A stretch of DNA of 64,000 nucleotides. It comes from an uncultured Pelagibacteraceae bacterium. GTDB lineage: Bacteria; Pseudomonadota; Alphaproteobacteria; Pelagibacterales; Pelagibacteraceae. Made by a program: the position numbers and the translations under genes. The stretch covers positions 1-64,000 of the forward strand of contig CACHCL010000001.1 in assembly GCA_902578315.1 (NCBI GenBank), given 5' to 3'. The notes under the pieces were generated by a model, which ran no database searches, was not told where the DNA came from, and was given only the letters and a program-made list of their open reading frames with translations. Below, piece after piece: positions 1,703 through 9,108 of this stretch (position 1 is the stretch's first letter; each line of letters opens with the position of its first letter).

Positions 1703-2665
1703 TTAAAGTTTATTACAATTGTACCCTAAATTTATTAGGTTTAATTTATTACATTGATCTGCAAATCTTATTTCATCTATGTACAAAATTTGAACTGTTG
1801 TCGCTTCCTCATACTTCCATTTAGTTTTCACTTTTTTTCCTTTAGCCTTTATTTGATTTGCTCTGTCTTGATAAATACCAAAATTTGTTGACGAGAGTGA
1901 TGAGTTTCCTGGCATTTTATTTTGCATATCTACAATTTTTTTGCCGTTAACCCATATGAATAAACTTTTCTTATTTGGTGTATGTACTATTACATCTATC
2001 CACTTTCCTAAGTGATTAGAAAAATGTTTTAAATCAAAAAAAGGTGGATCGTGATATTTTTCGCTTATTTTTCTACAAATATTTTTTCCCAGAAGTTTTT
2101 TGCTAATTTTCACGCACTCATTGTCGTGAAGAAAACTTCTTAACTGTACATTTACAATTCCTTCAGGTGAAATACCCATTCTATAATGTGCACCTTTGCC
2201 TTTTCTATGTATTTGATTGAATATAAGTGGCGTATTTGAATGAATATAATTTTTAGGGATTAATACGGAAAATGAAAGCCATTTACTTCCCCAATCCCGA
2301 TACTTTGTTCCTATAAAAACTCGTCGTGCTCCCTCATAGCAATTGTTCCAGTTATTTTTGCTATCATTTGATTTCTTGTATATCCCACAATCACCTGGAT
2401 GACTTTCAAATTTAATAGAGATATTATCATCTCTTGAAATTTCATCTGTGATTATCAAACAGTGATCAGGTCCTTTACCATTTTGCCAGCATGAATCCCA
2501 ATGGTTCATTCTTAATTTTTTACCTTCAAGAACATTATCAGGTAAATTAATTAAACGACTATTACCACTACTTTTGCTTCCAGCTAATTCTTTCCACACT
2601 ATTGGATCAGCATATGAATTATTTAAAAAGAGAAAAAATAATAAAAATATAGACAAACTTTTCAT
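1703..2665 (-). CDS. Secreted polysaccharide-lyase-like protein (heparin lyase fold)
   Basis: A 320-residue protein with a clear signal peptide (basic start, long hydrophobic stretch, likely cut after Ala19). The mature part carries the GDCG motif, several cysteines suggesting disulfides, RRVFIG, a WLSFSVLIP strand and a C-terminal FGIYQDR plus ILYIDEIRF. This pattern fits the jelly-roll heparin-lyase/glucuronan-lyase superfamily (Polysacc_lyase, PF14099). It would act in the periplasm or be secreted and cleave uronic-acid-containing glycans. A diverged relative with the same GDCG and GIYQ signatures lies at 47936-48745. Catalytic residues cannot be assigned with certainty from sequence alone, so lyase activity is inferred from fold resemblance. 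Confidence 0.65.
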   Translation of the reverse strand: MKSLSIFLLFFLFLNNSYADPIVWKELAGSKSSGNSRLINLPDNVLEGKKLRMNHWDSCWQNGKGPDHCLIITDEISRDDNISIKFESHPGDCGIYKKSNDSKNNWNNCYEGARRVFIGTKYRDWGSKWLSFSVLIPKNYIHSNTPLIFNQIHRKGKGAHYRMGISPEGIVNVQLRSFLHDNECVKISKKLLGKNICRKISEKYHDPPFFDLKHFSNHLGKWIDVIVHTPNKKSLFIWVNGKKIVDMQNKMPGNSSLSSTNFGIYQDRANQIKAKGKKVKTKWKYEEATTVQILYIDEIRFADQCNKLNLINLGYNCNKL

Positions 2666-2741
2666 CGTTAAAATTTAAATTATCAGTATTAAATATTTAT
2701 GAAAAGTAAAAATTATCTTACCAAATTTTCCCTTTCTGTCT

Positions 2742-2763
2742 CCTAGTTTGCACCTAGTCTGCA
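2742..2763. repeat. Paired 11-bp direct repeat, putative integrase arm site (left element)
   Basis: The two units cctagtttgca and cctagtctgca abut exactly and differ by one base. They begin 127 bp to the left of the tRNA-Leu-derived core at 2869. The paired repeat on the other side of the islet (7905-7924) begins 129 bp left of its own core, also has an 11-bp period, but a different sequence. The layout resembles arm-type binding sites of tyrosine recombinases; the role is inferred. Confidence 0.55.
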
Positions 2764-2834
2764 CAAATTAATTTGTCTTGATTTCTAATGTTAATTGAAA
2801 GGTTAAATAAGAAAGTTAAGATTGATAATGTTTT

Positions 2835-2860
2835 GAGACTACCTGAGACTGTCCGAGACA
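2835..2860. repeat. Three 10-bp-phased direct repeats, putative excisionase or arm sites (left element)
   Basis: The hexamers gagact, gagact and gagaca start at 2835, 2845 and 2855, one helical turn apart. The first begins exactly 34 bp before the core at 2869. An equivalent triplet begins exactly 34 bp before the second core (8000, 8010, 8020). Phased direct repeats next to a core are typical of excisionase or integrase binding, but no such gene is present here to test the link. Confidence 0.5.
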
Positions 2861-2868
2861 ATGAAGTT

Positions 2869-2923
2869 AGTGAATCCCTGGTGTTTTAAGTCCTTTGTGT
2901 CTACCAATTTCACCACGAGGGCA
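2869..2923 (-). repeat. Attachment core A: 5' half of tRNA-Leu(UAA), truncated
   Basis: A 55-bp sequence matching 8034-8088 with three mismatches, all within the four bases 2879-2882. Read on the minus strand it begins with an acceptor 5' strand GCCCTCG, a D-arm with TGGTAGACAC and an anticodon loop containing TAA (CTTAAAA), which is the 5' half of a bacterial tRNA-Leu(UAA). There is no variable arm, T-arm or 3' acceptor strand, so it cannot make a tRNA. It is best read as an integration footprint (att core). Calling it a tRNA pseudogene would also be fair. Confidence 0.8.
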
Positions 2924-3001
2924 TAAATGAATTTCATAAGTGTTTATGCCAATATTTATAATTGAACAAGAGGAATAAGTAAATTTTTTTTATTTTATCT
3001 T

Positions 3002-3026
3002 TTTAGGTACTGGTCTGGTACAGGTT
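3002..3026. repeat. Paired 11-bp repeat, putative P'-side arm site
   Basis: Contains ggtactggt at 3006-3014 and ggtacaggt at 3017-3025, an 11-bp period. The 25-bp block matches 7901-7925 at 22 positions in the same orientation. It lies about 80 bp right of core A and ends about 30 bp before the stop of the restriction-modification gene. The same motif therefore flanks both ends of the cargo gene, as expected for integrase arm sites on the two sides of an attP. Confidence 0.6.
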
Positions 3027-3057
3027 ATCCTAGAAGGTCCTATACCTTATATAAAGT

Positions 3058-6000
3058 TTATACTAAATTAATTTTTGGAATTTTTTTTATCAATTTTTGT
3101 GTTTCCACTGAAATATGAATTATTTTTAACAATAAATTAAAAGAATAAGACGGATCTTTCATAGCTTCTTTGTTAAATTCATTAATATCATTTGTAAAAC
3201 CAGTTTTATCATCCTTTTTAACTGAATGTCGTTCCATTATCCATTCGATTGCAGATTTTCCACTTAATCTATAATCATAAGCCTCAAGTGGTATATCTTT
3301 AATAGTAATATAATTATTAAATTTAATTTGAGTTTTATCAGGACTAGATCTTGTACCAACAAAATTTATTTGAGATATATTGTAAAACTCTTCTTTAGGA
3401 TATTTTTTTTTGTTATTATGAAAATCTACATTAAATTTTGCACCATATAATCTTTGATTATCAAAATCTAAATGTAGGTTTGATAGTTTTTTTCCTATAT
3501 CATAGATTTGCATAAAATCTTTATACTTTACTATTGGAATTCTAGGCATTCCCTTTATTAAATTATTATGAAATTTTTTCCTGTAATGATCTGAATGTAA
3601 AATTCCATATACATAATAAAAAATTTGGTCCTCAGTTACTTTTTTATTTAATTTTTTTTTAAAAAGAGAGACTATTTCTGGATTTAAGTTATTTACTACA
3701 GTAGATTTGTCTTGGAATAAACTACTCTGATTATCATCATCATTATTATTTTTATCATTGTAATAAATATACCTTGGAAATGTATGTGAAGTATTAAGCA
3801 AATGATATTCAAAAGGTTTATTTACCATTAAACAACTAAATTCACTAAAACCAGTGGTAATAACTATCGACATATTTTTATGTTTTTTTGGAAAGATTTG
3901 CTGGTGTTTTCTAGGTCTTGATACAATAAAATTATCTAAATAACACCATGTAGAAACAAATGGTCGATACAAAACTTTTTGAATTTTTTTTTCATCAAAT
4001 CTATATTTTTGTTTTCTCCTAAATTGAGCTTCTAATGTACTATCCCACTTTATATCTTTATCCTTAAAATTAATCTTATTATAATTTATTTTTTGATCAA
4101 TTAAGCTATTAAATTTTTTTGTCATATTTCTTGTTATATTTATTAATTTTGATTTAGAAAAATTAATAGCATACGAGTCTCTTGCTGATGCAAAACCACT
4201 TGATGTAATTGAAAAAAGATAATTTTTAAAGTCTACATCATTTTTGTTAATTGAAATATATTTATCAAATTCTTTGTTGGTTTGGTTAATCCAATCATTA
4301 TTTTTATCAGGTGTAATTGATACAAAAAGATTCTTATCTTCGATATTCTTTATAGATTTTAAATTAAATATTTTATTTAATTTTTGTTCTTTTGTTAAAT
4401 AATCTCCAATATCATAATATTTAATATCAGCTTTTTTATTTTGTTTATTTTTATTTTTAACAAGAATTGTAATTGCAACTGGTGTCCTCGAACCCTCACC
4501 AAAAACATTACCTTTTTCCTTACGTCTTATTTCACCTTGAGTTCTCGCATTTCCTCTCAGATTAAATATATAAATACTGCTAAATTCTTCTTCAAAACAT
4601 TTCCTTAATCCATCTGTTGCATTAGCATCTATCCAACTTGCATTGGTAACAAATCCTATAATACCCTCATCTTTTATTCTATCTGATGCCCATCTAAATG
4701 CCCTTATATAACTATCATATATCTTATTTTTATTTGAAGAATTTGAGTTCTTCACATAGGTTTCATAGATTTTTGAATCTAAATTTCTATAAGAAACATT
4801 TGCAGCATCATCACTAAAAGATTTTTGACCAGCTGAATATGGTGGATTACCAATTATCACTCTAATATCTCTTTTTTTTTGATTAGTTCTTCTGTTAGAA
4901 TTATCAGGTAGTAAATCAGCTATTAAATCTCTCTCTTGTTCATATAACTGAAAAGTATCAGTCAACACTGACCCACTAAAAGGTCGATACGAGTTCTCTT
5001 TAATTATTTCTTGGTAAACAGACTCTATATTAATACCAGCGATATAGTATGCTAATAGAACAATTTCATTACAATGTATTTCGTTTATGAATTTATGTTT
5101 TAAATTTTTTTTATCAATCAATTTCGATTGAATTAATCTTGTTATAAAGGTTCCAGTTCCTGCAAACGGATCCAAAATATGTATATTTTTTTCAGATAAA
5201 GATGAATTAAAATCTCGAATAAGTACATCATTAGTAGATTTTAATATAAAATCTACTACTTCAACTGGAGTATAAACTATTCCAAGTTTATTAGTTGTTA
5301 TTGGGAATGCATTTTTGAAAAATCTTTCATACAACTCATTAATTAATGTTGTTCTTCCTTTGGATGTTACTATATCTGAAGCTCTTCTTTTTACGCTGTC
5401 ATAAAATTTTTCAAGTGATTTTGTCTCAACTTTTATATTATAATCATAAATATTTGTTAAAACATTGTGAATTGCTTTTGAAACTGCATTATCTTTTACG
5501 AATTCATTTCCTTGAAATAATGTATCAAAAACGGGTTTTGTTATTATATGTTGAGCCAGCATTTCAATTGCATCATTTTCAGATATTTCAGGATTCAAAT
5601 CGTCTCTAATTTCTCTTAGAAACAGTTCAAATGTTTTCCTTTCTTTAGACTTTTTATTTACTAAAATTGAATTTAATCTTGAAATATGTGTCTGAGCTAT
5701 TTTGGCGATATCATTTGCCCAATTTTCCCAATAATCTCTTGTTCCGCATTTATCAACTATTTTTGCCTTAATTGCTTTGGATAAATCATTTATTTCAAAA
5801 GATAATTGATTTGTTTTTAAATCATCATCTTTTTTATTTTCAATATTAATAATATTATCATCAGTGTCTGATACTACTTTTGCTGAGGTTTTAATGTCAT
5901 CAATTTCAGCAGTTAAGGACTCAAGTTCATCATTATAGTTAATTATATCTATTTTATCTGAAACATCTTCACCTAACTTTATTTTGTTAATTGTACTATC

Positions 6001-7884
6001 TAGTCTTTCATCATGTGCTCTAAGAGCATTTAAAATTTGCCATACAACACTGTATTTCTCGTTATTATCAAGAGCTCTTTCAGGTGTTACACCTGGTGCG
6101 ATTGTGACAGGTATCACCACATAACCAATATCTTTTCCCTCTGCTTTTCTCATTACTCTTCCAACAGACTGAACAACATCTACTTGACTTTTTTTAGGGT
6201 GAAGAAACATTATTGCATCAAGAGATGGCACATCTACTCCTTCAGATAAACACCTAACATTTGATAAAATTCTACATTGATCATCTGGAATTTCTTCTTT
6301 AAGCCAATTTAAATGTTCTGTTCTCCTATCAGCATTAAAGGTTCCATCAATATGTTTTACATCAATATTAAGTTCTATTTTTTCATTTTTGTTTTTGTAG
6401 GTATAATCTTTAATTACATTTTTAAATTCACTTTCAAAAATTTTGGAAATTTCTATATTTTGGGAAAAGGCTAGAGCTCTTTTTATTGGGCTATGATTAT
6501 TATTGTCAAAACCAACTTTAGCTAAGGCTTTATAGCAACCAATAATTTTTGTAGCATCGTCAAGTCTAAGCTCTGAGCCGTCTTCAAATGATTTTTGAAG
6601 ATCTCTACTTACTTTTGTTTCATCTATTGCAAGAATAACTACTTTATAGTCTGATAAAAGATTATTTTCTACAGCCCAATTAAATCCTCTAAAAAAAAGT
6701 GTTTCACCATAAATTTTTTTATCATCCATTGAAGCTAACGCAATATCCTCTCCTTTTGCTTTAGATTTAGCTTTCTCTCCATAAATTTTTGGTGTAGCAG
6801 TCATGTAAAGTCTTTTTTTTCCTTTAATAACTGCATTGTCATGAATTTTTACAAAATTAGTTTCATCTTCATCAAATAAAGTCGCACCTGTAGTTCTGTG
6901 AGCTTCATCACAAATAATTAAATCAAAGTCTGGGATATCAAATTGTTTTTGAGCTTTTTCTATAACATCAATTGATTGGTAGGTCGAAAAAATAACTATC
7001 ATTTTATTTTTTTCACAATTTTTAATTTGTTTTGATAAATCCTCTGAATTTGTTGTCGCTGGAAATGCAAGATCATTCAATGATATTTCAATTTTATCAT
7101 CTGATGGTTTTCTTTTTCCCACTTTCACATCTGAACAAGCTGAAAAAGCATAAAAATCATCAATAGAATCATTTTTCCACTCTCTTACAGTTTGAGACAT
7201 GAGTGCTAAAGATGGAACAATATATAAAATCAATTTATTTTTTGATTTTAATTTTTCAGCGATATTTAAGGCTGTGAAAGTTTTTCCAGTACCACAAGCC
7301 ATAATAAGTTTACCACGATCGTTTTTATTTAAACCAGATAAAACAGCATCCACTGCTTTCATTTGATGGTCCCGTAATTCTTTTTTTTTGTTTAATACAA
7401 CTTTTTCATCTTTTAAATATGATAACCAATCAATCCGACTCTCTTGTAATTCATTCAATTGAATTCTTTGATATTTTTTGTCTAAATTATTAAATACTTT
7501 TTTTGCATTTATTCCTATATCTTGAGAAGAAGTATCTATAAGAATTAGTCTTTCAAAATCATCAGTTGAAGAAGCTGAAATAAATGAGTCTATATCTGAT
7601 TTAGAAATAGTATGTTCAGATTTATAACACTTACATTGAATTGCACAAAATTTATCACTTCCATTTATTTTTGCTACTAAATCTATTCCAATGTCTAATT
7701 TAGAATAATTTTTGTTTGCTTTTGACCAATCTTTATAATGCCAAATTTTTGAAAATTGTTGTTTTTGTAATGGATCATTTTCAAAAAAAATTTTACACAT
7801 TTTTTCAAAAACATCCCCTAGATCTTTATCATTTTTAGCTTTTTTTCTGATAATTTTAATAGCTTCTGAAAAATTTGAGTCCAT
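3058..7884 (-). CDS. Single-chain restriction-modification enzyme, Type ISP-like (Mrr-like nuclease, SF2 translocase, N6-adenine methyltransferase)
   Basis: A 1608-residue protein that unites restriction and modification. Residues 1-160 form an Mrr-like PD-(D/E)xK nuclease (GID68, Q83-C-K85). Residues 165-600 are a superfamily 2 translocase: Walker A ACGTGKT at 196-202, DEAH at 326-329, TAT at 362-364, SEGVDVP at 547-553 and QSVGRVMR at 572-579. A helical spacer follows. Residues 870-1100 are a gamma-class N6-adenine methyltransferase with DPFAGTGTF at 905-913 and NPPY at 1013-1016. The C-terminal 450 residues should hold target recognition. Order and length match Type ISP enzymes such as LlaGI and LlaBIII. 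The frame is intact and all key motifs are present, so it is probably active. It is the only gene between the two tRNA-derived repeats, and its start lies 17 bp from an arm-like repeat. Confidence 0.88.
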   Translation of the reverse strand: MDSNFSEAIKIIRKKAKNDKDLGDVFEKMCKIFFENDPLQKQQFSKIWHYKDWSKANKNYSKLDIGIDLVAKINGSDKFCAIQCKCYKSEHTISKSDIDSFISASSTDDFERLILIDTSSQDIGINAKKVFNNLDKKYQRIQLNELQESRIDWLSYLKDEKVVLNKKKELRDHQMKAVDAVLSGLNKNDRGKLIMACGTGKTFTALNIAEKLKSKNKLILYIVPSLALMSQTVREWKNDSIDDFYAFSACSDVKVGKRKPSDDKIEISLNDLAFPATTNSEDLSKQIKNCEKNKMIVIFSTYQSIDVIEKAQKQFDIPDFDLIICDEAHRTTGATLFDEDETNFVKIHDNAVIKGKKRLYMTATPKIYGEKAKSKAKGEDIALASMDDKKIYGETLFFRGFNWAVENNLLSDYKVVILAIDETKVSRDLQKSFEDGSELRLDDATKIIGCYKALAKVGFDNNNHSPIKRALAFSQNIEISKIFESEFKNVIKDYTYKNKNEKIELNIDVKHIDGTFNADRRTEHLNWLKEEIPDDQCRILSNVRCLSEGVDVPSLDAIMFLHPKKSQVDVVQSVGRVMRKAEGKDIGYVVIPVTIAPGVTPERALDNNEKYSVVWQILNALRAHDERLDSTINKIKLGEDVSDKIDIINYNDELESLTAEIDDIKTSAKVVSDTDDNIINIENKKDDDLKTNQLSFEINDLSKAIKAKIVDKCGTRDYWENWANDIAKIAQTHISRLNSILVNKKSKERKTFELFLREIRDDLNPEISENDAIEMLAQHIITKPVFDTLFQGNEFVKDNAVSKAIHNVLTNIYDYNIKVETKSLEKFYDSVKRRASDIVTSKGRTTLINELYERFFKNAFPITTNKLGIVYTPVEVVDFILKSTNDVLIRDFNSSLSEKNIHILDPFAGTGTFITRLIQSKLIDKKNLKHKFINEIHCNEIVLLAYYIAGINIESVYQEIIKENSYRPFSGSVLTDTFQLYEQERDLIADLLPDNSNRRTNQKKRDIRVIIGNPPYSAGQKSFSDDAANVSYRNLDSKIYETYVKNSNSSNKNKIYDSYIRAFRWASDRIKDEGIIGFVTNASWIDANATDGLRKCFEEEFSSIYIFNLRGNARTQGEIRRKEKGNVFGEGSRTPVAITILVKNKNKQNKKADIKYYDIGDYLTKEQKLNKIFNLKSIKNIEDKNLFVSITPDKNNDWINQTNKEFDKYISINKNDVDFKNYLFSITSSGFASARDSYAINFSKSKLINITRNMTKKFNSLIDQKINYNKINFKDKDIKWDSTLEAQFRRKQKYRFDEKKIQKVLYRPFVSTWCYLDNFIVSRPRKHQQIFPKKHKNMSIVITTGFSEFSCLMVNKPFEYHLLNTSHTFPRYIYYNDKNNNDDDNQSSLFQDKSTVVNNLNPEIVSLFKKKLNKKVTEDQIFYYVYGILHSDHYRKKFHNNLIKGMPRIPIVKYKDFMQIYDIGKKLSNLHLDFDNQRLYGAKFNVDFHNNKKKYPKEEFYNISQINFVGTRSSPDKTQIKFNNYITIKDIPLEAYDYRLSGKSAIEWIMERHSVKKDDKTGFTNDINEFNKEAMKDPSYSFNLLLKIIHISVETQKLIKKIPKINLV

Positions 7885-7900
7885 GAAACTATATTATCTC

Positions 7901-7925
7901 TTTAGGTACTGGTTTGATACTGGTT
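7901..7925. repeat. Paired 11-bp repeat, putative P-side arm site
   Basis: Contains ggtactggt at 7905-7913 and gatactggt at 7916-7924 (11-bp period). It is the same-orientation counterpart of 3002-3026. It sits immediately upstream of the restriction-modification start codon at 7884 and 129 bp left of core B, so it may also overlap that gene's promoter and couple recombinase binding to expression. That coupling is speculative. Confidence 0.6.
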
Positions 7926-7999
7926 TTAAAGATTAATATACTGAGATTCTTTATGAAAATGTTTACAAATTATAAAGATGCTAATGTTTAAAAGAATTT

Positions 8000-8025
8000 A
8001 AGACTACGTTAGACTACTATGGACT
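8000..8025. repeat. Three 10-bp-phased direct repeats next to core B
   Basis: Hexamers aagact, tagact and tggact begin at 8000, 8010 and 8020. The set starts exactly 34 bp before core B, the same distance as the gagact triplet has from core A. The shared centre is (a/g)gact. Candidate excisionase or accessory-factor sites; alternatively operator sites for the nearby gene. Confidence 0.5.
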
Positions 8026-8033
8026 GACTAAAA

Positions 8034-8088
8034 AGTGAATCCCTCGGCTTTTAAGTCCTTTGTGTCTACCAATTTCACCACGAGGGCA
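8034..8088 (-). repeat. Attachment core B: 5' half of tRNA-Leu(UAA), truncated
   Basis: The direct counterpart of 2869-2923. On the minus strand it reads as tRNA-Leu from the acceptor 5' strand through the anticodon loop (TAA anticodon), then departs from any tRNA fold. The four variable bases fall in the expected 3' anticodon stem. To its right begins ordinary chromosomal sequence without arm-like repeats, so this copy is likely the chromosome-side junction of the islet. No intact tRNA-Leu is present in the window. Confidence 0.8.
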
Positions 8089-8154
8089 CATTAATTTTAT
8101 TATGTATATGATATTTATATTATTATTTAAATCTTATAAAATATACTTTTTTTA

Positions 8155-9108
8155 ATGGAAAGAATCTTAATATATAACTCGGGGGGCGGACTTGGGGACT
8201 CGATTCAGCTATTTCCTCTAATAATTAGTCTAAAAAGTCATTTTAAAAAATCAAAGTTTTATTATTTGGGTGCTCATGCAAATCATTTTAATGGGAGATT
8301 GAAAGAATATAATATTAAATTAGAAACTTTAGATTTAGGGTTAAAATATTTTGGCTTCAGATGGTGGCATGTGCTTTTTGTGAAAAAACGTTTCACAAAA
8401 GCAGCATTAGGTAAATTTAGTTTGATAATAGATTTACAAAGTAAACTAAGAAATACGATGATATTAAAACAAATACCTCATAATTTTTTTTATTCAAGAA
8501 CCTTAAATGGGCGTTTGTCCTCAAAAAAAATCAAATCATTCTCATCAGACCATTTTGAAAATTTAAGTTTATTTTTTGAAGAAGATATTCTGAAGCTTGA
8601 CTTCAAGGTAAAAAAATTACCGAAACAGATCTTATCAGAAGCTAAAAAACTTTTACCAAATTCAAATTATGTGGGGTTTTCAGTTACACAAGGTAACGAG
8701 TATAGGAAAAAAAGTTGGTCAATTTTTAAATTTACAGCCTTAGCAAATAAAATACTTTCAAAAAATAAAATCCCTGTTTTTTTTGTAGAAAAGAATAGAG
8801 TCGACCTGATTGAGAAAATTAAAAGTCAAGTTCCAGCAGCAATTTTTCCTGAAATTAATTCCGAATTAGCTTGCCCTGCCCTTGTAACAGCATTAGCTTC
8901 TAGATTAGAAACTGCAGTATCTATAGATAATGGTGTTATGCATATGATGGCTTTAGCTAAAATACCCATGATAGTTTTATTTGGTCCTACTAAATCTGAA
9001 AAATTCGCTCCAAAAAATAAATTTACAAAAATTTTAGATAGTAAAAAAATTCATAACTCAAAAGATATTAATTCAATTGAGGTTGATGAAGTTCTTAGTT
9101 TAATCTAA
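8155..9108 (+). CDS. Glycosyltransferase family 9 (heptosyltransferase-like)
   Basis: A 317-residue GT9 protein of the WaaC/WaaF type, which transfers heptose from ADP-heptose to the lipopolysaccharide core at the inner face of the membrane. The N-terminus has the glycine-rich loop NSGGGLGDSIQ, and the C-terminal half carries DNGVMHMMALAKIP followed by LFGPT, the family nucleotide-sugar binding signature (usually NDSGPMH). The serine of that signature is replaced by asparagine-glycine here, so the exact donor is uncertain. It follows the chromosome-side junction of the islet, from which it is separated by 66 bp of AT-rich sequence that probably holds its promoter. It is convergent with cinA, sharing the bases CTAA of the two stops. 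Confidence 0.8.
   Translation: MERILIYNSGGGLGDSIQLFPLIISLKSHFKKSKFYYLGAHANHFNGRLKEYNIKLETLDLGLKYFGFRWWHVLFVKKRFTKAALGKFSLIIDLQSKLRNTMILKQIPHNFFYSRTLNGRLSSKKIKSFSSDHFENLSLFFEEDILKLDFKVKKLPKQILSEAKKLLPNSNYVGFSVTQGNEYRKKSWSIFKFTALANKILSKNKIPVFFVEKNRVDLIEKIKSQVPAAIFPEINSELACPALVTALASRLETAVSIDNGVMHMMALAKIPMIVLFGPTKSEKFAPKNKFTKILDSKKIHNSKDINSIEVDEVLSLI

Follow-up and report, generated by a model that had tools for sequence, protein, structure and literature searches.

The array at the tRNA-Leu(UAA) gene

The window analysed here is a 64,000-nucleotide stretch (positions 1 to 64,000 of contig CACHCL010000001.1, assembly GCA_902578315.1) from an uncultured SAR11 bacterium of the family Pelagibacteraceae. 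Close to its left end, two 55-bp direct repeats (2869-2923 and 8034-8088, both on the plus strand; 52 of 55 positions, 95%, identical; spacing 5165 bp) enclose DNA that encodes a single protein, a restriction-modification (RM) enzyme of 1,608 residues on the minus strand (3058-7884). A preliminary description of the stretch had read positions 2742-8088 as a solitary islet without an integrase, with attP-like ends and one defence gene as cargo, moved by a recombinase supplied in trans. The repeats, the arm motif and the phased triplets on which that description was built are all present with the positions and identities that it gave, the cargo is indeed one open reading frame (ORF) predicted to encode a defence enzyme, and the interpretation is supported by the results below, albeit for an element with other boundaries and with neighbours of its own kind.

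The repeats are not due to chance: a 31-bp stretch of them occurs at only two places in the window when up to three mismatches are allowed, with a mean of 0.00 in shuffled sequence. Each consists of 15 bp followed by a 40-bp copy (2884-2923 and 8049-8088) of the 5′ half of the tRNA-Leu(UAA) gene, cut at the anticodon loop, the 40 shared bases spanning from that loop to slightly beyond the 5′ end of the tRNA. This 40-bp tRNA fragment, whose origin had been missed when the full 55 bp were taken as the core, is the actual recombination core; the preceding 15 bp (AGTGAATCCCT...) belong to the attP flank and have similar counterparts in the integrase-bearing elements discussed below. On the window strand, the anticodon loop reads TTTTAAG and is flanked in the tRNA by AAGGA/TCCTT. 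Because tRNA-targeting tyrosine integrases commonly exchange strands over 7 bp at the anticodon loop, the crossover can be placed, conditionally, in TTTTAAG. An Rfam search of positions 2500-8300 yielded one weak microRNA match (E 0.51, under the gathering score).

Inside the repeats, the left end of the RM cassette is formed by a spacer (2924-3001, plus strand; TAAATGAATTTCATAAG...AATTGAACAAG) of what we term class II, resembling the left ends of 14 other loci (76-91% over 63-134 bp), and by an arm pair (3002-3026, plus strand; containing GGTACTGGTCTGGTACAGGT). The right end carries the corresponding arm pair (7901-7925, plus strand), identical to the left one at 22 of 25 positions by eye and recovered within a 36-bp, 86% repeat, and a class II triplet of 10-bp-phased repeats (8000-8024, plus strand) that ends 24 bp before the core, as in four integrase-bearing elements. 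Phased triplets start at 2835 and at 8000/8001, in both cases 34 bp ahead of a 55-bp repeat. The cargo looks like a complete Type ISP RM enzyme: Pfam recognizes an Mrr-type nuclease, a ResIII helicase, an ISP coupler and a Type ISP specificity domain (PF13156, PF04851, PF22240 and PF18135), and the methylase part was judged from an NPPY motif in the translation, all in one chain. At E ≤ 1e-50, the protein has matches in three of the 169 genomes of the genus, namely its own and two that are partial (36% and 30% identity).

The RM cassette does not stand alone. In the genome of the window (957,569 bases in 26 contigs, 84% complete; G000 in our labels, where G, C and L numbers denote genomes, their contigs and fetched loci, respectively), the core occurs four times, twice in the window and twice on the 4,295-bp contig C18, where an intact tRNA-Leu(UAA) gene (G000:C18:1213-1298, minus strand) has one of the copies as its 5′ part; tRNA-Leu(UAA) is the insertion site of the window cassette. 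Between this tRNA core and the next, C18 holds a 2,374-bp cassette with genes for a prolyl-oligopeptidase-family-like protein and for a 396-residue protein that has only a sub-threshold beta-lactamase-family match (E 0.0014), followed by the start of another unit. The end of C18 matches the start of a cassette in genome G185 (L214, 5278-5898), and positions 1-2868 of the window are 99.3% identical to the same cassette over 2,859 bp, base 1 corresponding to L214 position 6137. Since both contig ends map onto one cassette, C18 most likely adjoins the window contig across a gap of 238 bp. On this join, which we infer from sequence comparison, the order would be tRNA-Leu, cassette 1 (2.4 kb), cassette 2 (~3.8 kb), cassette 3 (5.2 kb, RM) and a chromosomal gene for a family 9 glycosyltransferase (GT9; 8155-9108, plus strand; PF01075), the gene that directly follows tRNA-Leu in empty sites. 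Three integrase-less cassettes would then stand in tandem between tRNA-Leu and the GT9 gene, the window element probably being the last of them.

Accordingly, the islet as first drawn has to be shortened and rejoined to an array: it does lack an integrase and does contain the RM cassette, but it is one unit of several, and its first bases, 2742-2868, are the end of cassette 2. That end includes an arm pair (2740-2764, plus strand; CTCCTAGTTTGCACCTAGTCTGCAC), with the place and form seen in other class I cassettes, and a class I 10-bp-phased triplet (2835-2859, plus strand) ending 24 bp before the core; the left 55-bp repeat marks the boundary between cassettes 2 and 3, and the right one the end of the array. 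The cargo of cassette 2, on the minus strand, comprises a UMF1/Atg22-like transporter of the major facilitator superfamily (MFS; 434-1648; Pfam ATG22/MFS_1; 100% amino acid identity in L049, L050, L053 and L054) and a polysaccharide-lyase-like protein with a signal peptide by eye (1703-2665; PF14099; 96-99% in the same four loci).

Empty sites and exchange of cargo among relatives

The exact core pattern is found in 122 of the 169 genus genomes, that of the window included, and in at least two copies in 33 of them, with none for the reversed control; the class I triplet pattern GAGACTnnnnGAGACTnnnnGAGAC is found in 31 and, read backwards, in none. Among public sequences, at least 119 stretches carry the triplet together with the core, and all 80 listed belong by title to Pelagibacteraceae, Pelagibacterales or Candidatus Pelagibacter.

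We fetched 40 loci, picked partly for having several cores, such that their counts are no estimate of frequency. Seven of them (L062-L065, L067, L068 and L070) are empty sites, in which the tRNA-Leu gene is followed by the GT9 start 102-110 bp past the core start, with the NAD kinase gene opposite in six of the seven; in L061, only a spacer-and-arm remnant is left. Others of the fetched loci have different cargo between the same repeats, and the one closest to the window in its flanks (L052, 95.4% DNA identity) has a single, different 1.3-kb cassette in place of the array. The preliminary description had named the lack of empty sites and of alternative cargo among relatives as the outcome that would speak against mobility, and the opposite was observed. 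Ordinary intergenic repeats are thereby ruled out, as the repeats track insertions and empty sites exist. Cassette 2 recurs in ten loci besides L214, with 98.8-99.9% identity (over 2,719 bp in nine of them and 2,671 bp in the tenth), whereas the flanks of these 11 loci are only 73.4-83.0% identical to those of the window on the GT9 side (eight with a match) and 67.7-78.0% on the NAD kinase side (ten with a match), L221 matching on neither. On these identities, the cargo crosses lineages and the surrounding chromosome does not move along.

In all, we parsed 39 core-to-core units of 1.0-8.3 kb from 30 genomes, with 102 cargo ORFs in 57 clusters. Further RM sets are present in L041 and L209, many cargo proteins open with a signal peptide by eye, and methyltransferases and restriction enzymes predominate among the 25 of 160 PADLOC families listed. 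The Pfam and PADLOC tallies cover 52 of the 57 clusters, five clusters of L057 having been left out, and no integrase is among the 25 of 49 Pfam families listed. Searching the 39 cassettes with three integrases (tblastn) likewise gave nothing significant (best E = 0.46). A first impression that integrases follow the core in L044, L045, L046, L057, L075 and L076 had to be abandoned, the Pfam matches being to a sugar ABC transporter and an amylase (L044).

Cassette anatomy and matched arms

Each cassette lies between copies of the tRNA 5′ half, with a spacer and an arm pair at its left end and an arm pair and a triplet at its right end, so that the joined ends would form a putative attP of the lambda type. 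The triplet is recognizable in 37 of the 39 units (31 of class I and six of class II), and its distance from the core is constant within each class in 36 of the 37, one class II unit being 1 bp shorter; in the window, measured alike, the distance is 24 bp for both classes.

The arm pairs differ among cassettes (for example, CTCCTAGT, CTTCCAGT, GTACCAGT, GCTCTAGT, CTCCAAGT and GTACTGGT) and correspond at both ends of each. For a permutation test of this correspondence, we set aside the unit of L057, which has no triplet and whose second core is degenerate, the second of the L220 units, in which no triplet was recognized, and units with near-identical left ends; this reduced the 39 units to 25 nonredundant cassettes. 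Their summed left-right arm match was 427, compared to 392 in the best of 20,000 permutations (p = 5e-5), and matching held at the same level within class I alone (n = 18; p = 5e-5). The classes of spacer and triplet agree within 22 of the 25 cassettes (Fisher p = 0.0055). At the cores, by contrast, each of which joins two different cassettes, the classes on either side agree in only 16 of the 29 classifiable cases (20 more cores were unclassed). Agreement within cassettes and not across cores is as predicted for inserted circles with one attP.

Elements that encode an integrase on the same plan

When IMG/VR was scanned for the triplet-plus-core pattern, four contigs were found (L112, L137, L146 and L166), and two peptide patterns retrieved, as the only relatives of the L112 integrase in that database, the same four contigs. 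In all four, the arm pair, triplet, 24 bp, core, spacer and second arm pair are contiguous, in L166 across the contig ends, and a tyrosine integrase of 545-549 residues starts beside the triplet. This is the order that the preliminary description had anticipated for a joined circle. It had also suggested looking for an integrase gene in genomes that carry the arms of the window; no helper with these arms came to light in the viral scan, yet the same attP plan does stand beside an integrase in these four elements. They share with the cassettes both the 24-bp spacing and the TGTGAATCC flank. The triplet pattern alone matched 39 IMG/VR contigs, with the core present only in L112, L137 and L146, and the core alone 23 stretches, mostly in phage or tRNA contexts with other flanks.

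L112 and L166 have exact 99-bp direct repeats at their ends, consistent with circles of 7.7 and 8.9 kb. Besides the integrase, L112 encodes a DUF5906 primase-like protein of the archaeo-eukaryotic primase (AEP) type and a RusA-like protein, and L166 a DUF5906 protein; their predicted gene content is satellite-like. L146 also encodes a restriction-type helicase-nuclease. When the reconstructed attP sites of the cassettes were compared with the four candidate helper attPs, the upstream side of the core outscored every one of 300 block shuffles in 18 of the 24 pairs, including all four that involve the window cassette, and the downstream side did so in eight of 24. A 13-mer, CAGATCCTAGTTT, is common to the arms of the L041 cassette, which carries an RM system, and those of the L137 element.

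The left arm pair of each element lies inside the first codons of its integrase (L112 143-190, L137 4504-4550, L146 8775-8821 and L166 84-130), and the integrases of three of the four begin with a KLGxxLG-like stretch, DNA site and peptide being mutually constrained. In one genome locus (L203; G198:C13, around 465-505), an integrase 33% identical to these is preceded by a different 10-bp-phased triplet, CACTA, with an arm pair in its first codons that is similar by eye; perhaps this triplet represents another site specificity of the same kind.

How the cassettes may move

Taken together, these observations favour, with a probability that we put at roughly 0.7, a view in which the units at the SAR11 tRNA-Leu(UAA) gene are satellite-dependent cassettes, akin to cis-mobilizable elements (CIMEs), moved in trans by this family of tyrosine integrases; movement in trans is something we infer from the arrangement of the DNA sites. 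A helper element would enter the cell and its integrase would bind the arm pairs of the resident cassettes, exchanging strands in the 7-bp anticodon-loop sequence TTTTAAG, whereupon the cassettes could excise, circularize and reinsert at tRNA-Leu. A directionality factor may act at the phased triplet; in L112, a small gene near that of the integrase (2367-2660) was singled out by eye as a candidate for such a factor. The tRNA would be restored upon insertion, since the cassette supplies its 5′ half in identical form. Given that the arms differ between cassettes and match within them, the helpers to which a given cassette responds probably have an arm-binding part that fits its arms. Circles could conceivably pass between cells in vesicles, by transformation or packaged together with the helper.

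Several observations weigh against this view. The right end of a cassette ranks first for its own left end in only 10 of the 25 cassettes and falls as low as 16th, and in three of the 25 the classes are mixed. Downstream of the core, the window spacer scores 11-14 against the candidate helpers, with shuffle means of 10.6-12.3 and none of the four pairs above the shuffle maximum. No helper with the arms of the window itself (GGTACTGGT) was found in the viral scan, in which the two contigs matching these arms are without a core and match inside predicted coding genes. No excised circle or junction of any integrase-less cassette was seen in the genome and viral sequences scanned. The two peptide patterns retrieved no relative of the helper integrase from the genome contigs, and the 169 genus genomes hold one distant relative (33%), a near-absence that implies that helpers are rarely resident. 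Finally, Pfam recognizes the catalytic domain but no arm-binding domain in the integrases of L112 and L166, and the structure model obtained for the helper integrase was unusable (mean predicted local distance difference test score of 34). The integrase has no sequence relative in the PDB at E 1 and no match among phage records (tblastn).

The main rival to movement by a helper integrase is that integrase-bearing elements of the past left the cassettes behind as immobile remnants, which now spread only by homologous recombination between their conserved ends or shared flanks, through natural transformation and with no recombinase involved. Cassette ends do share similar stretches of up to ~200 bp, the genomes searched are almost devoid of helper integrases, and four composite units (L054, L216, L218 and L219) hold the cargo of two cassettes. 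The matching of arms and classes within cassettes, however, points to linkage through a circular attP; in addition, the units are bounded at the core, near-identical cassettes sit in diverged flanks, and the arm pairs and the 24-bp spacing have been kept even though the arm sequences vary. We, therefore, regard homologous recombination alone as an unlikely explanation. In the composites, genes that occur separately elsewhere (those for the MFS transporter and lyase, and for the 396-residue protein) lie within one core pair, which suggests either that internal cores were lost or that recombination took place between cargo genes.

Far less probable still are two other sources of a recombinase. 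An integrase of the type found in pelagiphage HTVC105P could use the same tRNA-Leu core: in this phage and in the uncultured phage S35-C6, a 41-bp, 100% match to the core region lies beside the integrase gene, and pelagiphage HTVC109P has a 94.6% match. Yet the attP flanks of these phages are, by eye, devoid of the triplet and arm pairs, and the triplet-plus-core contigs in IMG/VR all carry the other integrase family, which makes a phage mover very doubtful. Equally improbable is the host's single tyrosine recombinase (317 residues; G000:C3:76882-77427, L079), which is the sole PF00589 match in the genome of the window (35 of the 55 genomes searched from the family of that genome have such a match), but which is short, with a SAM-like (17-81) and a catalytic (123-304) domain that leave little room for an arm-binding part, and which fails to track the cassettes, being present in G015, G042 and G049, where the sites are empty, and without a match in G029, G035 and G052, which have cassettes (these genomes being incomplete). 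Thirty of the 35 genomes have one PF00589 protein, mostly of 308-325 residues and with low scores; genomes of the sister family mostly have two strong Xer-like matches. P. ubique is reported to be without dif/Xer (PMC2731167).

Comparison with known systems and implications

Tycheposons and virion-encapsidated integrative mobile elements (VEIMEs) are tRNA-targeting tyrosine-recombinase elements of ocean bacteria, satellite-like in character. The candidate helpers L112, L137, L146 and L166 resemble them in this respect and possibly are their kin. The window cassette shares with them the insertion at a tRNA gene, but it encodes the RM enzyme alone and neither a recombinase of its own nor the replication genes by which a tycheposon, VEIME or satellite would be recognized, whereas the helpers have an integrase and a primase-like gene. 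Integron cassettes and clusters of attC sites lacking integron-integrases (CALINs) are similar to the SAR11 cassettes in forming exchangeable gene arrays that have no integrase and are moved in trans. Integron cassettes recombine at folded attC sites, in contrast to the tRNA cores with arm pairs found here (no integron search was made).

Closest in organization are the CIMEs, which, like the SAR11 cassettes, have no integrase, are flanked by att sites, form tandem arrays at one site and presumably move with recombinases that neighbouring or related elements supply. Islands at ssrA in Dehalococcoides that lack integration modules have been discussed as CIMEs and in terms of tandem accretion (PMC3146451). 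The cassettes have flanks of the attL/attR kind, that is, core repeats with attP half-sites whose plan is that of the contiguous attP of integrase elements, and no detected genes for integration or transfer, the window unit having one long cargo ORF. They depart from CIMEs in that many of them hold just one to a few genes, that their arm sites come in matched pairs specific to each cassette, and that the candidate helper, small and satellite-like, has not been seen within the array. Additive flexible islands with direct repeats of tRNA fragments have been described in 'Ca. Actinomarinales' (PMC7771536), as have islands in 'Ca. Methylopumilus' next to which a tRNA end is repeated (PMC10872708). 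As with the cassettes, small units accumulate there at a tRNA gene with repeated fragments, in streamlined aquatic bacteria; the lineages and tRNAs are different, and the portions of these sources at hand identify neither attP arms nor a helper integrase. Pelagiphages that integrate at tRNA-Leu (PMC3861242) have the same tRNA-derived core, but different arms and a different integrase. Tycheposons and VEIMEs are named in PMC11389934. Our literature search, which did not extend to the primary papers on tycheposons and VEIMEs, met with no account of integrase-less cassette arrays at the SAR11 tRNA-Leu gene, nor with an attP anatomy that has cassette-specific matched arms and is tied to one integrase family.

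More tentatively, and with odds that we consider slightly short of even, the array might be an integron-like platform of SAR11, in which cassettes of one to a few genes, each bearing its own matched arm 'address', act as hyperparasites that borrow the integrase of rare virus-like satellites, the arm code choosing the helper, and ferry defence and surface genes between SAR11 cells that are only distantly related. The analysis ties the cassettes to one particular integrase family solely by way of DNA sites. A natural code for integrase specificity, as the varied arm pairs with their agreement between the two ends would represent, would be a rarity, of possible use in the genetic engineering of SAR11.

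SAR11 bacteria are among the most abundant cells of the ocean and have streamlined genomes. For their gain and loss of genes, the array offers a concrete vehicle, a single tRNA site with small cassettes, some of them with restriction systems, that turn over faster than the surrounding chromosome.

Further elements and cargo features

Three additional observations concern other elements. A phage-like IMG/VR contig (L156, IMGVR_UViG_3300025897_000973), the PhoH region of which is 72% identical to cyanophages, carries at 4423-5094 the core, spacer and arm pair of a single class II cassette end together with a small lipoprotein-like gene, and is possibly a phage-borne cassette or a chimera. A DUF5906 satellite-like element (L359; G155:C14, 3796-10294) lies next to tRNA-Pro and encodes a 465-residue integrase with both the catalytic and the arm-binding domain recognized by Pfam; the SAR11 genome in which it resides also has an array of cassettes at tRNA-Leu. 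Contig C23 of the same genome (L360), with two weak DUF5906 matches, was considered as a circle and rejected, its ends being an inverted duplication of the same genes that perhaps reflects amplification or an assembly artefact.

Lastly, a signal-peptide start of the form MKKLLxIVVLGLL is nearly shared by non-homologous cargo genes, comprising 15 of the 102 ORFs in seven clusters (for instance, L005 2576-2626 and 3415-3465; also L039, L040, L047, L058 and L216). In the genome of the window, the corresponding DNA pattern marks only the two genes of the C18 cassette. A single match was seen in each of two relatives out of 25, and as one of these is G015, the tRNA-Leu site of which is empty, the leader also occurs outside the array.

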